DNA of 64,000 nucleotides from Streptomyces sp. NBC_01275 (lineage in GTDB: Bacteria > Actinomycetota > Actinomycetes > Streptomycetales > Streptomycetaceae): the NCBI RefSeq assembly GCF_026340655.1, contig NZ_JAPEOZ010000001.1, forward strand, positions 1,488,001-1,552,000, in the 5' to 3' direction. Below are positions 42,773 to 47,988 of this stretch, piece after piece; position 1 is the stretch's first letter, and every line of letters begins with the position of its first letter. Below the pieces are notes generated by a model. The model was not told the DNA's origin and did no database searches. It was given only the letters and a program-made list of their open reading frames with translations. A program made the position numbers and the translations under genes.

Positions 42773-42815
42773 TTGACGCAGAAGAATCACGCTGCGTAAC
42801 CTCACAGTGAGTTAC
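42773..42815 (+). promoter_or_regulatory. bldD promoter with overlapping BldD-type palindrome
   Basis: TTGACG (42773-42778) and TAACCT (42797-42802) are 18 bp apart, a near-consensus housekeeping promoter ending 56 bases before the bldD start. The imperfect palindrome GTAACCTCACAGTGAGTTAC (42796-42815) covers the -10 box; its centre is CTCAC-A-GTGAG. BldD is known to repress its own gene at a site of this kind, so this is the expected autoregulatory operator. Confidence 0.75.
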
Positions 42816-42858: not shown

Positions 42859-43359
42859 ATGTCCAGCGAATACGCCAAACAACTCGGGGCCAAGCTCCGG
42901 GCGATCCGCACCCAGCAGGGCCTTTCCCTCCACGGTGTCGAGGAGAAGTCCCAGGGACGCTGGAAGGCGGTCGTGGTCGGTTCGTACGAGCGCGGCGACC
43001 GCGCCGTGACCGTGCAGCGCCTTGCCGAGCTGGCGGATTTCTACGGCGTTCCCGTGCAGGAACTGCTGCCGGGCACCACCCCGGGCGGCGCCGCCGAGCC
43101 GCCGCCGAAGCTGGTCCTGGACCTGGAGCGACTGGCCCATGTGCCGGTCGAGAAGGCGGGCCCGCTGCAGCGGTACGCGGCCACGATCCAGTCGCAGCGC
43201 GGCGACTACAACGGCAAGGTGCTGTCGATCCGCCAGGACGACCTGCGCACCCTCGCCGTCATCTACGACCAGTCGCCCTCGGTCCTGACCGAGCAGCTGA
43301 TCAGCTGGGGCGTGCTGGACGCGGACGCGCGTCGCGCGGTCTCCCACGAGGAGAGCTGA
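42859..43359 (+). CDS. bldD: Developmental master regulator BldD (c-di-GMP-responsive repressor)
   Basis: This DNA-binding protein holds back Streptomyces sporulation and is dimerised by tetrameric cyclic di-GMP. The 166 residues have an XRE-type HTH (about 5-70: AKLRAIRTQQGLSLHGVEEK and VVVGSYERGDRAVTVQRL). The C-terminal domain carries the c-di-GMP motif RGD at 114-116 and RQDD at 125-128, exactly as in known BldD. ATG 42859 follows GGGGAG; an in-frame ATG five codons earlier lacks this. The sequence is full length and intact. Confidence 0.97.
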   Translation: MSSEYAKQLGAKLRAIRTQQGLSLHGVEEKSQGRWKAVVVGSYERGDRAVTVQRLAELADFYGVPVQELLPGTTPGGAAEPPPKLVLDLERLAHVPVEKAGPLQRYAATIQSQRGDYNGKVLSIRQDDLRTLAVIYDQSPSVLTEQLISWGVLDADARRAVSHEES

Positions 43360-43394: not shown

Positions 43395-43422
43395 AAGGGC
43401 GGAGCCGATCGGCTCCGCCCTT
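43395..43422 (+). terminator. Palindromic terminator after bldD
   Basis: AAGGGCGGAGCC-GATC-GGCTCCGCCCTT is a perfect 28-base palindrome 36 bases after the bldD stop. It is symmetric, so it could work in both directions. It separates bldD from the CHAT operon. Confidence 0.85.
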
Positions 43423-43568
43423 CGCGCTGTCCGGCCGCCGCCGGCGTGCTCGCACATCCCCTCCTCCTCTCACACTCCTCGCACGCTCCTCGCACACCCC
43501 CTCGTCCCGACGCGGCCGCCTGTGCCACGATCTTCCCAGCTGCGCCGATCACGGGACGGGGGGCCGTC

Positions 43569-46500
43569 ATGGCAGTGCGTGACCAGGACGACGAGGCGTT
43601 CGACGCCGTCGTCCGCCTTGTACGGGACATCCATGCCGAACACATGGGCGAGGAGGCCGCCGAGCGCCAGGTGCGGTCGCCGCGGTGGGCGCTGACCGAG
43701 GGCGCGGCGCGTTCGCTGGTGGGCTTCGGCTACCGGCACGTCCGGGAGGGCATCCCGTCCACCGGCCATCTGATAGCACGGCTGATGCTGGCGGCGGCGG
43801 ACGCCCGGTGGGGGCGCGGCACCGCCTCCCCCTGGTGGCACGCGGCCGATCTCCTGGTAGAAGCGGCCCGCCTCGATCTGATCGACCGGCCGAGCGGCGA
43901 CCGTCTGCGCCTGGCCTGCGCCGTCGCCGACGAGCAGATCGACACGCTCCGCCGGGAGGCGAACCTCGACGAACTGGCCGAAACCATGTACGCGGCCGGC
44001 ATCCTCCGGGTCCACCCGCACATCGGACGCTCCCCGCTCGACGGCACGGGCCTCCTCCGGGAACGGCAGGTACGCGGTCTGCTGCGCGGCCGCTTCTTCA
44101 CCGGCGGCTCCGGCGACGGCGCGGCCGCGGACACCGACTCCCTCGGCACGGAGTCCCTCGACCCGGACGCCCTCGACGCCCTGCCCCACCCGGTGGACGC
44201 CGCCTTGGAGGCGCTGCCCTACCTGTACGGGGCGGTGGGGCTGAGCCGGGGCCATCTGCGCGCCCGCTGCCGGCACGCGGTGAACGAGGCGCTGTCCATC
44301 CTGATGAACAACCCCGACGCCGAGGGCTGGACGATGGATGCCTGGCTGGCGAACAGCAGGGCCGCCGCACGCTCCATCGACCCGGCGCTCGACCCGGTGA
44401 ACGCGATCCGGCTGCGCCGCATCCTCGCCCACTACGACGGCGAACGGCCGCCTGCCACCCTCGGGGAGCTGCTGCCCGTACCGCTGGCCGAGCTGGTGCG
44501 CACGCGGGGCGAGCGGGAGACCTGGGCGGTGGCGGAGCAGGCGCTGTGCCTGCTGCGCGAGACCGGAGAACGGGACCTGCTGCGGGAGCTCGTGGCCGCC
44601 GTGTACGCGCAGCTGCCCGACGCGGAGAGTCCCGAGCAGCTCCGCGAGCTGTGGCACAGCCACGTCCATGTGCTGCCCGGCGACACCACCGCCTGCCCCG
44701 GCGCGGAGGCCGGAGCAGGCGAGCTCCAGCTGGCGCTGTCCGCGCTGGTCGCCGCCCCGCGGCCCGACACGGCCGCCGCTCTGCACCTGGCCGCTCACCT
44801 CGCCGGGCTCGGCGGCGCTCAGGCCGCCTGCACGCTGACGGACCTGTTGCCCGACCCCCTGCCCGACGCGGGACCGGAGGTCACCGCCGCCGTCAGACAC
44901 CTGCTCGCCACCTCCCACGCGGCCGCCGGCACCGCGTGCCGCCAGGCGGGCGACCTCGGGGAGGCGATCGGCCGGCATGCCACGGCCGCACGCCACTACG
45001 CGATCCTCGGGCTGACGGATCTGGGCCTGCGCCAGACCGAGCTGATGGTGGAGTGCGCCGTCGAGGGCAGCGCCGACGACACCCTGCGCGCGGCCGTCCT
45101 GCTCCGCAGGAGGGCCGCCCCCTGGCTGAACGCGGGACTGCACGAGGAGTCGGCGTTCGCCCTCGTCGCGGCCGCACAGCGGCTCGGGGCGGACACGCGC
45201 GAGGGGCCGTCGTCGCCCTTCGCGCTGCTGCAGCTCCAGAGCGCCGCCAAGGCGCTCGACTTCTCCCGCGCGCTGGCCCGCCCGGGACCCCGGCCGCCCG
45301 TCCAGCCCCTCGTGGACCTCCGGCAACGCATCGACGAGCTCGAGAGCCGACTGGGCGAGGCCGTGGCGCCACGCCTCGACGACCTCGCCGAGGACCTGGA
45401 GATGCTGTGCTACGCCGGTCCCCAGGAGCATGCGCCCGGCAACGCCGAGGACGAGCTCCTCGGCAATCTGCGTCGCTCCTTCGACCGCGGGCTCTCCCGC
45501 CGGCTGTACGCACTGGGACCGACGGACGAGTCCTCCGGCCGTCCGGACCTGGACGACGTCGTCGCGGCGCTGCCCGCCGACACCGTGCTGGTCTCACTGT
45601 GGATCGGGCAGCAGCCGAGCCGGATGGAGCCCGCCGGACCCGACGGGCAGCCCGCCGCCGCCCTCCAGCTGATGACGATCACTCGCGAAGGCGTCCGTGA
45701 CCAGCGCATCCTGCCGTTCGGCGGCATGCCCGCCGCGGTGATCCGGATGAGCAGGGACGGCTACCGGCATTCCCTGCACCCCTTCGGCTACGAGGTGGCG
45801 TCGCTCCGGTCGGTCGTACGCACCGATCCGCTGCACCGTGCGGTGGCGCGCGGGGCCGAGGAGGAGCTCGACTGCGGAAGGCTCTTCGGCCGCCTGACCG
45901 ACGTCCTGACGAGCCTGTACGACGAGGGCAAGCGCCATCTGTGCTTCTGGGCGCACGGCCCCTTCCACTTTCTGCCGTTCCCGTTGCTCCACCTCGACGG
46001 GCGGCCCCTGGCGGACGACTGGACCGTCACCACCGTGCCCAGCCTGGTCTGCGTCACCGGGCCCGAGGAGGATCGGCCCCGCGCCGGGGAGGGGCTCGTC
46101 TCGCTGGGCGCTTCGCTGGGCGGCGCCCCGTGGGGCCTTCAGCCGGAGCCGGTGCTGGACGAGCACGCCACGGCCGTCGCGGAGTTCGCCGGCGGGGCGG
46201 CGCTGGTCGGGCCCGCCGCGACCCCGGCGTCCCTGCTGGCCCGGGCCCAGGGCGCCCGCTACGTCCATGTGGCGGCGCACGGGGCGCACAGCCAGGACGC
46301 CTCCTGGTTCCAGTGTCTCTACCTCAACCCGCCCGAGGCCGGTGAGGGCCCTGAGAACAGCGCGGAAGGTGAGAACCGCAGGGCCGGGCGGCAGGAGGCG
46401 AGCAAGGACGGGAGGCTGTTCGGTCACGACGTGCTCGCAGCCGATCTGCGCGGGGTGGACCTGGTCACCCTCAGCGCCTGCGAGTCGGGGCTCGGCAGGT

Positions 46501-46769
46501 TCGACCTCGCCGACAATCCCCGGGGACTGCCGGCCGCGTTCCTGCTGGCCGGGGCCCGCGCGGTGGTGGGCTGTCTGTGGCCGGTACGGGCCGAGGCGGC
46601 CACGTACTTCTTCGGCGAGCTGCACCGGCATCTCGCCGGCCACCACGACACCCTGCGGGCCTTCCGCCACGCCCAGACCGTCACGCGCGAGCGGTTCCCG
46701 CAGTACCGCGACTGGGGCGCCTTCGCCTACCACGGCGGCTGGAGCCGCCCCGAAGAAGGGAACGCCTGA
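43569..46769 (+). CDS. CHAT domain protein (caspase-like protease with long helical N-terminal region)
   Basis: This is a predicted cysteine protease of clan CD. The C-terminal CHAT domain (about residues 790-1060) has FWAHGPFHFLPFPLLHLDGR, the catalytic His904 in YVHVAAHGAHS and Cys971 in LVTLSACESGLG, then AFLLAGARAVVGCLWPV, typical of CHAT proteins. The preceding 750 residues are alpha-helical, Ala/Leu-rich and TPR-like without a clear repeat, and probably sense or bind a partner. A charged linker (about 929-955) lies between His and Cys. ATG 43569 follows a G-rich site; upstream frame is non-coding. The stop overlaps the start of the next gene (TGATG). Target and trigger are unknown. Confidence 0.88.
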   Translation: MAVRDQDDEAFDAVVRLVRDIHAEHMGEEAAERQVRSPRWALTEGAARSLVGFGYRHVREGIPSTGHLIARLMLAAADARWGRGTASPWWHAADLLVEAARLDLIDRPSGDRLRLACAVADEQIDTLRREANLDELAETMYAAGILRVHPHIGRSPLDGTGLLRERQVRGLLRGRFFTGGSGDGAAADTDSLGTESLDPDALDALPHPVDAALEALPYLYGAVGLSRGHLRARCRHAVNEALSILMNNPDAEGWTMDAWLANSRAAARSIDPALDPVNAIRLRRILAHYDGERPPATLGELLPVPLAELVRTRGERETWAVAEQALCLLRETGERDLLRELVAAVYAQLPDAESPEQLRELWHSHVHVLPGDTTACPGAEAGAGELQLALSALVAAPRPDTAAALHLAAHLAGLGGAQAACTLTDLLPDPLPDAGPEVTAAVRHLLATSHAAAGTACRQAGDLGEAIGRHATAARHYAILGLTDLGLRQTELMVECAVEGSADDTLRAAVLLRRRAAPWLNAGLHEESAFALVAAAQRLGADTREGPSSPFALLQLQSAAKALDFSRALARPGPRPPVQPLVDLRQRIDELESRLGEAVAPRLDDLAEDLEMLCYAGPQEHAPGNAEDELLGNLRRSFDRGLSRRLYALGPTDESSGRPDLDDVVAALPADTVLVSLWIGQQPSRMEPAGPDGQPAAALQLMTITREGVRDQRILPFGGMPAAVIRMSRDGYRHSLHPFGYEVASLRSVVRTDPLHRAVARGAEEELDCGRLFGRLTDVLTSLYDEGKRHLCFWAHGPFHFLPFPLLHLDGRPLADDWTVTTVPSLVCVTGPEEDRPRAGEGLVSLGASLGGAPWGLQPEPVLDEHATAVAEFAGGAALVGPAATPASLLARAQGARYVHVAAHGAHSQDASWFQCLYLNPPEAGEGPENSAEGENRRAGRQEASKDGRLFGHDVLAADLRGVDLVTLSACESGLGRFDLADNPRGLPAAFLLAGARAVVGCLWPVRAEAATYFFGELHRHLAGHHDTLRAFRHAQTVTRERFPQYRDWGAFAYHGGWSRPEEGNA

Positions 46770-47494
46770 TGGAACCCGTGACGTCCCTCGTCCTCCCGAT
46801 CCTCCCGGGACACGACGTCGACCTCGTCGTCCCCGCCACGCTCCAGGGCCGTACCACCGAGGAGCGCATCGCCCGTCGGCTGACCGTCACGGAGCCGTTC
46901 GTGACCCGGCTGGCCCTGGACCAGCTGTCCGAGCTGGGGGTCGACCCGGTCCTGCTGGCGCCGCTGCCGTCCGGCGACGACTACTTCGTGGTGGCCTTCG
47001 TCACCACCTTCCGCCCCGCTCCCGACGGCGACTCCGCGTCCTTCGTGGACGCCCGGGTCGGCATCAGGCTCACCGCCCCGAACGGCGGGCGGCAGCCGGT
47101 GACGCTGGCGCTGTCCCCGGACACGGCGAGCGCGGCGAGCGGGAGCAGCCTGCGGTTCGCGCTGGCGGTGCCCCTCGGCGTCGTGGAGCCGACCGTGGAG
47201 TACACGGCCGGCGGCTCGCGGGAGGAGCGGTACATCACCGCGTACGGTCTCGGCAGCAGTGATCCCGAGTGGCTGCTGCGCGACGCGCCGGGGCACCCGC
47301 TCGCCGGGGACGTGCTGCTGGCGGTCGTGGTGCGCGCGCCGACCGGCTCCGCCGTACGGGCCGAGGTCGTCGTGGCGGCCTCACTGAAGAGGCTGAGGCT
47401 GCTGCGCAGCCGGGCGGAGCTGCCCTCGCGGCTGCACACGATCGACCTGCCGGCACAGGTGGGGCACGCCGTGTTCCAGGGCGTGGCCGAGTAG
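46769..47494 (+). CDS. Unknown protein coupled to the CHAT protease
   Basis: I do not recognise this 241-residue protein. It has no signal peptide, membrane helix or cysteine. The pattern is strand-rich: SLVLPILPGHDVDLVVPATL, then YFVVAFVTTFRP, VGIRLTAPNGGRQPVTLAL, RFALAVPLGVVEPTVEYTA and LAVVVRAPTGSAVRAEVVVA, which suggests a beta-sandwich. The C-terminal part ends in a basic helix (LKRLRLLRSRAEL). Its ATG overlaps the protease stop, so the two are made together in a fixed ratio. It could be a substrate, an inhibitor or a scaffold of the protease; nothing in the sequence decides this. Confidence 0.8.
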   Translation: MEPVTSLVLPILPGHDVDLVVPATLQGRTTEERIARRLTVTEPFVTRLALDQLSELGVDPVLLAPLPSGDDYFVVAFVTTFRPAPDGDSASFVDARVGIRLTAPNGGRQPVTLALSPDTASAASGSSLRFALAVPLGVVEPTVEYTAGGSREERYITAYGLGSSDPEWLLRDAPGHPLAGDVLLAVVVRAPTGSAVRAEVVVAASLKRLRLLRSRAELPSRLHTIDLPAQVGHAVFQGVAE

Positions 47495-47498
47495 ACGC

Positions 47499-47531
47499 CG
47501 AGGGCCCGCGGACGGTGTCCGCGGGCCCTCG
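47499..47531. terminator. Bidirectional hairpin between CHAT operon and nusB
   Basis: Perfect 15-base arms CGAGGGCCCGCGGAC and GTCCGCGGGCCCTCG with a 3-base loop start 4 bases after the stop of the CHAT partner and end 22 bases before the convergent nusB stop. Confidence 0.88.
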
Positions 47532-47553: not shown

Positions 47554-47988
47554 TCACGCCTCGTCGCGGCGCAGGGACGGCTTGAGTTCCTTCAGACGGC
47601 CGAGGAGGCCGTTGACGAACGAGGGGGACTCGTCCGTGGAGTACTCCTTGGCGATCTGCACCATCTCGTCGAGGACGACGGCGTCCGGGGTCTCGTCGGC
47701 CCAGATCAGCTCGTAGGCGCCGAGACGCAGGATGTTGCGGTCGACGACCGGCATGCGGTCGAGCGTCCAGCCGACCGAGTACTGCGAGATCAGCTCGTCG
47801 ATGCGCTGCGCGTGCACCGCGTAGCCCTCGACCAGCTGCATCGTGTACTCGCTCACCGGCGGCTGCCGGGTGTCGGCCCGGGAGAGCCGGATCCAGTCCG
47901 CGAGGACCGTCAGGACGTCGACTCCACGCTGGTCGCCCTCGAAGAGAATCTGGAAGGCGCGCTTGCGGGCCGTGTTGCGAGCAGCCAC
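47554..47988 (-). CDS. nusB: Transcription antitermination factor NusB
   Basis: This small helical RNA-binding protein acts with NusE/S10 in rRNA transcription antitermination. The 144 residues contain ARKRAFQILFEGDQR, VGWTLDRMPVVDRNILRLGAYE and VVLDEMVQIAKEYSTDESPSFVNGLLG, all family hallmarks. It follows efp with a 2-base gap, the conserved efp-nusB pair. Confidence 0.96.
   Translation of the reverse strand: MAARNTARKRAFQILFEGDQRGVDVLTVLADWIRLSRADTRQPPVSEYTMQLVEGYAVHAQRIDELISQYSVGWTLDRMPVVDRNILRLGAYELIWADETPDAVVLDEMVQIAKEYSTDESPSFVNGLLGRLKELKPSLRRDEA

Follow-up and report, generated by a model that had tools for sequence, protein, structure and literature searches.

A mobile CHAT protease gene and its closely linked partner gene between bldD and nusB in Streptomyces sp. 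NBC_01275

In Streptomyces sp. NBC_01275, two genes lie between bldD and nusB: one encodes a long protein with a C-terminal CHAT protease domain, and the other a small protein of 241 amino acids (aa), referred to here as the partner. What brings such a pair to this place, and what might the partner do for the protease? These questions were addressed computationally in a stretch of 64,000 nucleotides (nt) of contig NZ_JAPEOZ010000001.1 (positions 1,488,001 to 1,552,000 of the forward strand), called the window below, and in related genomes. The two genes form a real, mobile and closely linked protease-partner module. A dedicated pairing is supported by the company that partner genes keep in other genomes, and mobility is evident from a patchy distribution, from the nearest pair found, which sits at another site in a genome whose own junction is empty, and from a copy on a plasmid. 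Tentatively, and at somewhat less than even chances, the pair is read as a horizontally acquired two-gene conflict module in which the partner is a binding, sensing or gating subunit of the protease. A function in defence or cell death may reasonably be inferred.

The gene pair and the partner family

The long protein belongs to the CHAT family by its domain, which scores above the curated cut-off, and by its catalytic His/Cys pair; proteolytic activity is predicted. In an alignment of long CHATs that includes the one in the window, all 31 rows keep the two residues. Matches below are given with their expectation values (E).

43569..46769, plus strand: long CHAT protease gene, 1066 aa, with a large N-terminal region without a family match and a C-terminal CHAT domain
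45888..46733, plus strand: CHAT domain, residues 774-1055 (Pfam PF12770, 124.5 bits against a cut-off of 24, E 7.6e-36)
46278..46280, plus strand: codon of the presumed catalytic His904, motif VHVAAHG, column kept in 31/31 rows
46479..46481, plus strand: codon of the presumed catalytic Cys971, motif LSACESG, column kept in 31/31 rows
46767..46771, plus strand: TGATG stop/start overlap of the CHAT and partner genes, also present in the pair of genome G640
46769..47494, plus strand: partner gene, 241 aa; its CHAT-associated family has no match in the libraries, and hydropathy indicates no membrane helix

An earlier note on this DNA had described a 1066-residue protein with CHAT residues His904 and Cys971, joined through TGATG to a 241-residue partner of no known family, with bldD and nusB as neighbours; reading frames and model matches confirm each of these points. 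The partner start shares the last base of the CHAT stop codon, a one-base overlap. Both genes read as coding by a coding score, and their GC content, overall and at third positions, deviates from that of the other called genes by no more than one standard deviation; the codon score per codon of the CHAT gene is the fourth lowest among 56 called genes. A search by consensus gave no promoter.

The tie between partner and protease was judged from 36 full-length partner genes besides that of the window (34 called as genes, L126 taken from annotation and L203 from a six-frame search), which include related genomes and so are not 36 independent cases. Thirty-three of them stand beside, or one gene away from, a CHAT or CHAT-like gene, which is long in 22 cases and short in 11. 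The long-CHAT neighbours are on the same strand in 19 cases and convergent in two (L203, L207), and in one a TPR gene lies between (L209). The exceptions to CHAT linkage are L060 and L199, where no protease gene was called, and L208, which is cut by a contig edge. Fourteen of the 30 same-strand neighbours overlap; the partner is the second gene in the 19 same-strand long-CHAT pairs and the first in 10 of the 11 short-CHAT pairs. These counts bear out the earlier note's reading of a protease with its own partner, and among the genomes studied the partner gene does not occur widely in the absence of a protease gene. The identities of CHAT and partner correlate at 0.98-0.99, a value inflated by relatedness. 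Three partial matches (L068, L196, L211) were excluded from the 36; these stretches contain no match to the CHAT-domain model, and L068 holds a frame resembling the N-terminal part of the window CHAT protein. Also outside the 36 are the type-B loci L029, L031 and L036, which were reached via CHAT genes.

The short CHATs tie the family to EAD1, an adaptor known from conflict systems. Ten of the 11 match an EAD1 model built here, although four of those 10 were in its training set; Pfam finds EAD1 in L056, L058 and L090, and its CHAT model scores above cut-off in L058, L062 and L090. EAD1-helicase and Clp_N-EAD1 genes also occur alongside related partner genes. The window pair has no match to an EAD domain.

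Up to E 1, the partner matches no model of Pfam, NCBIfam or PADLOC. Hydropathy gives no membrane helix (best 19-residue value, 1.46). The earlier note called the partner strand-rich; on this point a count of secondary-structure propensities is crude, failing to separate helical from strand controls. Few residues are invariant (M1, P110, P117, P166, W168, G180 and A204), and these do not look catalytic. A library of solved structures returned nothing for a CHAT profile (E up to 0.01) or for the CHAT protein alone (E up to 1), and a single chance-level match (E 1) for the partner profile. A remoter, type-B set of partners located 3' of CHAT genes (alignment A5: L029, L030, L031, L036) is joined to the family by hhalign, which in one profile comparison gave 90.9% and E 1.2e-6. 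The link runs both ways: the A4 profile of the family matches the type-B member of G110 (E 5.4e-6), and A5 matches the G079 member (E 1.1e-4). Under the cut-off, weak matches to families were to SPDY for the L050 partner (E 0.027) and to PilZ (E 0.0079) and Ig-like (E 0.24) for type B. In a tree, the window partner groups with that of G640 and the long and short contexts cluster, with some long branches; the family is divergent and patchy. Searches of an open library of 5.39 million papers, which leaves out most subscription papers and all bioRxiv preprints, listed no title or opening of an abstract in which the pair is named or the family described. Possibly, if doubtfully, the family is an undescribed, dedicated sensing or assembly subunit of actinobacterial CHAT immunity, serving long CHATs (some with TPRs), EAD1-CHATs and pseudo-proteases.

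Distribution, mobility and the bldD-nusB junction

As a query on its own, the window partner has matches in 13 of 150 genomes of the genus (one judged to be due to chance) and in 2 of 61 genomes of a family sample, its own genome included in each. Profile A4 finds members in at least 33 of 343 genomes of the genus, and profile A1 in at least 3 of 296 genomes of a class sample, again with the own genome counted; 8-9 first-look candidates were scored per genome, and these counts may be low. A direct search of genome contigs with the window partner gave no relative, and alignment A1 is without a conserved stretch. With a 222-aa family member as query, 17 named loci were obtained. Both frames are open in 12 of them; gene calling did not resolve L071, three loci are decayed and one match is trivial. 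The decayed copies (L083, L084, L085) are damaged in both genes; at L083:5816-7450 an in-frame deletion has left a single frame that lacks the protease domain and runs from N-terminal CHAT-protein sequence into C-terminal partner sequence. Streptomyces sp. NBC_01724 carries a copy on a mobilizable plasmid, 3' of AbiEi/AbiEii, with transposase genes within a few kilobases (kb) on both sides. A weak match in G027 (L061) was dropped for want of a partner-model match, and L086, a match of 24 residues, was dropped too; at L067 the CHAT gene is at a contig end, which leaves no partner in view. In another family of the class, a CHAT-partner pair is followed by a third gene, also overlapping, which encodes 116 aa and matches no family (L091:9597-10660).

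The nearest pair found, in G640, is 64% identical to that of the window in the CHAT protein and 67-69% in the partner, and it too has the TGATG overlap. It occupies another chromosomal site, 3' of 126-nt repeats that by eye read as TPR-like; a NACHT gene follows after about 4 kb, beyond an intervening gene. G640's own bldD-nusB junction is empty. Transposon ends around the G640 cassette are not claimed, as the inverted repeats there are no longer than many others nearby.

The junction in the window has these features, listed from left to right.

42859..43359, plus strand: bldD, the left neighbour (resident; NCBIfam NF050110, 307.5 bits against a cut-off of 250), with 96-99% identity in 25 other genomes
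43395..43422, no strand: 14-bp perfect palindrome 3' of bldD, probably the resident terminator of bldD, hairpins being found 3' of bldD at empty sites
47499..47531, no strand: 15-bp perfect hairpin 3' of the partner gene, in the position of a nusB terminator (arms 47499-47513/47517-47531)
47554..47988, minus strand: nusB, the right neighbour (resident and convergent; TIGR01951)

Among 36 further genomes from the genus, at least 29 yielded a nusB locus. In 25 of these 29, bldD is less than 1.5 kb from nusB, with an interval of 93-412 nt; in three others the interval measures about 1.7-1.8 kb and contains a single called gene, and in the last a transposase-like gene adjoins nusB and bldD is absent from the 8-kb stretch viewed. 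The genes are also neighbours in 5/5 further genomes that carry a CHAT of the window type elsewhere (a sixth, G079, gave no nusB match). Overall, bldD and nusB are adjacent in 30 of the 34 other genomes of the genus, and the CHAT/partner pair is at this junction in none of the 34. Together with the empty junction of G640, this bears out the view that the pair was inserted as an accessory element into a collinear block. The junction is a minor insertion site: in G022, G030, G010 and G023 (L122-L125; 4/29), nusB has another single gene or a transposase-like gene beside it.

Strong hairpins had been noted as bounding the pair on both sides. Both exist, but they may differ in origin. The 5' hairpin comes after GCAGAAACGT, directly 3' of bldD, and looks resident because this sequence, with hairpins after it, also follows bldD in 20 of the 25 empty sites. 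The 3' hairpin has a near-identical copy 3' of the partner gene in G640, at its other chromosomal site; since DNA similarity to the G640 cassette extends over about 43517-47527, taking in most of this hairpin, it may belong to the cassette. It is speculation that the cassette arrived by recombination at similar hairpins.

The location next to bldD would also fit a developmental module under BldD control, and this location is all that speaks for such a module. The pair is absent from this site elsewhere, and its nearest relative lies at another. A scan of the window for BldD-box-like sites, with up to one mismatch from the consensus allowed, gave six matches where 4.7 are expected by chance, and none between bldD and the CHAT gene. 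BldD control of the pair was rejected on this last count, a developmental tie by way of bldD finds no support, and a developmental module is very improbable. Just upstream of bldD (42787-42814), two BldD-box-like sites, one of them exact, fit autoregulation.

The role of the partner

At one site, between an AMP-binding gene (by Pfam for L056, L059 and L060) and a gene that we read as aldo-keto-reductase-like, the protease beside the partner is often dead. In the short EAD1-CHATs of L056, L057, L195 and L197, Arg replaces the catalytic His and Pro replaces the Cys, with a Cys one residue earlier; the L197 gene is cut by a contig end just after the catalytic region, and L059 keeps both residues. 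The pseudo-protease genes beside the partner, each with both catalytic residues lost, are as follows.

L056:9769-11227
L057:8917-10366
L195:7976-9442
L197:5514-6762

The partner frame is open beside all four, and also at L060 and L199, at the same site, where no protease gene was called. Among the four loci, the ratio of nonsynonymous to synonymous substitution rates (dN/dS) is 0.24-0.34 for the partner and, for three of them, 0.33-0.41 for the pseudo-protease. Partner dN/dS is 0.365 between the protease-less L060 and L199, and 0.20-0.41 in ten comparisons within the long-CHAT branch. That the partner persists beside a dead protease, and where the protease has been lost, moderately favours a part in binding or regulation over that of an obligate substrate. 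When the window pair is compared with that of G640, the CHAT domain has a dN/dS of 0.17, the first 600 residues of the CHAT protein 0.44 and the partner 0.43; the partner and the N-terminal region diverge alike, and the CHAT domain more slowly.

In the preferred reading, the pair would have been acquired horizontally as a two-gene conflict module. The long CHAT would be a caspase- or separase-like protease silenced by its own large N-terminal region; the partner, a small, soluble and apparently non-enzymatic protein made with the protease by coupled translation, would bind the protease protein as a sensing or gating subunit. A trigger, probably infection or other invasion, would release the protease, which would then cut cellular or module proteins and lead to arrest or death of the cell. 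Physical binding, sensing, trigger, target and cell death are all inferred steps of this scheme.

The main rival to a regulatory subunit is a cleaved effector. Here the partner would be both substrate and effector: the activated CHAT would cut it, and a fragment would harm the cell or free a bound factor, as with Csx30 and the gasdermins. This rival stays alive because cleavage of a neighbour-encoded protein, Csx30, by the TPR-CHAT protease Csx29 is documented (PMC10028731). It would also fit with the catalytic pair kept in every long CHAT row, with a partner dN/dS that tends to be higher where the protease is dead or gone (up to 0.69), and with another CHAT gene of the same genome that overlaps a RES-domain gene by 4 nt. 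Against it stand the partner frames that are open beside dead short CHATs or without any protease, and the lack of a family match for the partner. Overall, a cleaved effector is possible, though less likely than not; cleavage of the partner in the long-CHAT branch, to which the window belongs, may nonetheless be compatible with its retention elsewhere.

Could the partner instead hold the protease off, as a securin- or antitoxin-like inhibitor or chaperone whose loss frees the protease? The close linkage and shared divergence of the two genes, and the decayed copies damaged in both, would suit this. However, the partner persists at loci with a dead protease or none, and gene order is not fixed, the partner being first in most short pairs, second in the 19 long ones and convergent at L203 and L207. 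An inhibitor or chaperone is improbable.

The RES-domain case belongs to a wider pattern. CHAT proteases occur in 33 of 41 genomes of the genus (own included), and the genome of the window has five CHAT genes. One of these, at L064:7076-11979 (G000:C1, about 5,798,000-5,803,000), overlaps by 4 nt a gene with a RES domain (E 1.7e-20). RES domains degrade NAD, and the two genes are a possible CHAT-controlled toxin pair. A second, at L065:7450-10513, overlaps by 8 nt a 136-aa gene with no Pfam match over cut-off; of the remaining CHAT genes of this genome, one lacks a coupled gene on its 3' side and another could not be resolved. In 10 of 33 sampled CHAT loci, the start of a same-strand gene lies no more than 100 nt from the CHAT stop. 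These 10 genes are of about seven kinds, and two of them belong to the partner family in the wide sense; the choice of frame is doubtful in 3 of the 33 (L003, L157, L160). Three additional small-gene families directly 3' of CHAT are seen at L133, L135 and L137 (168-200 aa), at L032 and L132 (270-275 aa) and at L152 and L153 (108 aa), and the six of these genes that were scanned (all but L137) have no Pfam match over cut-off.

Several findings weigh against the partner as a regulatory subunit of a conflict module. The overlap of a CHAT gene with a RES-domain gene implies that a gene coupled in this way can encode an effector. Not every pair is tightly coupled, since 16 of the 30 same-strand neighbours are separated by gaps of 7-154 nt (by our own start calls), and the shared divergence of partner and N-terminal region would also be expected from mere co-inheritance. 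Comparisons across the dead-protease site (with L059, L060 and L199) give a partner dN/dS of 0.36-0.69; selection on the partner there may be relaxing, which leaves its retention as a moderate argument. Pfam finds no CHAT match in L056, where homology rests on alignment. The neighbours of the window pair are housekeeping genes, and matches were absent from phage records with the window partner as query and from viral contigs with the L051 partner. PADLOC gave no meaningful score (BovA, 13.5 bits), and its scan of the flanks (best 25 of 57 families) had no control and was not used as evidence of enrichment. The link to conflict systems, through EAD1 neighbours, the RES-domain gene behind another CHAT and the plasmid copy beside AbiEi/AbiEii, is only indirect.

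If the partner family is indeed a dedicated subunit of CHAT immunity, the CHAT genes of streptomycetes would be a modular set, in which one type of protease is combined with interchangeable small partners (the partner family, RES and a number of others, likewise small). A pair that is mobile and whose partner belongs to a recognisable family gives a defined object for asking whether the partner senses, gates or serves the protease, with the natural pseudo-protease and protease-less loci as ready controls. The pair would also connect bacterial separase-like proteases with the EAD1 conflict network.

Comparison with known systems

The Csx29/Csx30 system (Craspase, of type III-E CRISPR) shares with the window pair a CHAT His/Cys pair, a large N-terminal part and a dedicated neighbour-encoded protein (PMC10028731, PMC9729208). 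However, the window CHAT scores only 13.7 bits on the Csx29 model NF041237 (cut-off 300), its pair adjoins bldD and nusB rather than a Cas7-11 gene, and the partner has no family match. The bacterial gasdermins with a CHAT-type protease (as cited in PMC9729208) likewise combine a protease with a small neighbouring protein, whereas the window partner matches no family in sequence.

The EACC1-caspase modules are also two-gene actinobacterial systems; they combine a caspase-like protease with a component that is small and constant, and a sensor-to-protease logic has been proposed for them (Kaur et al. 2020, PMC7159879). In these, EACC1 is encoded 5' and has a membrane helix, whereas the window partner is encoded 3' and has none by hydropathy; up to E 1, the partner shows no match to the EACC1 domain PF19953. 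As in EAD1-coupled conflict systems (PMC7159879, PMC8195603), genes for EAD1-CHAT, EAD1-helicase and Clp_N-EAD1 proteins accompany related partner genes; the window pair differs from these systems in having no EAD match. The partner family receives no mention in the available text of those two descriptions. By analogy, the Csx29 and EACC1 systems would be most like the window pair in their working, each joining a small companion to a caspase-like protease.

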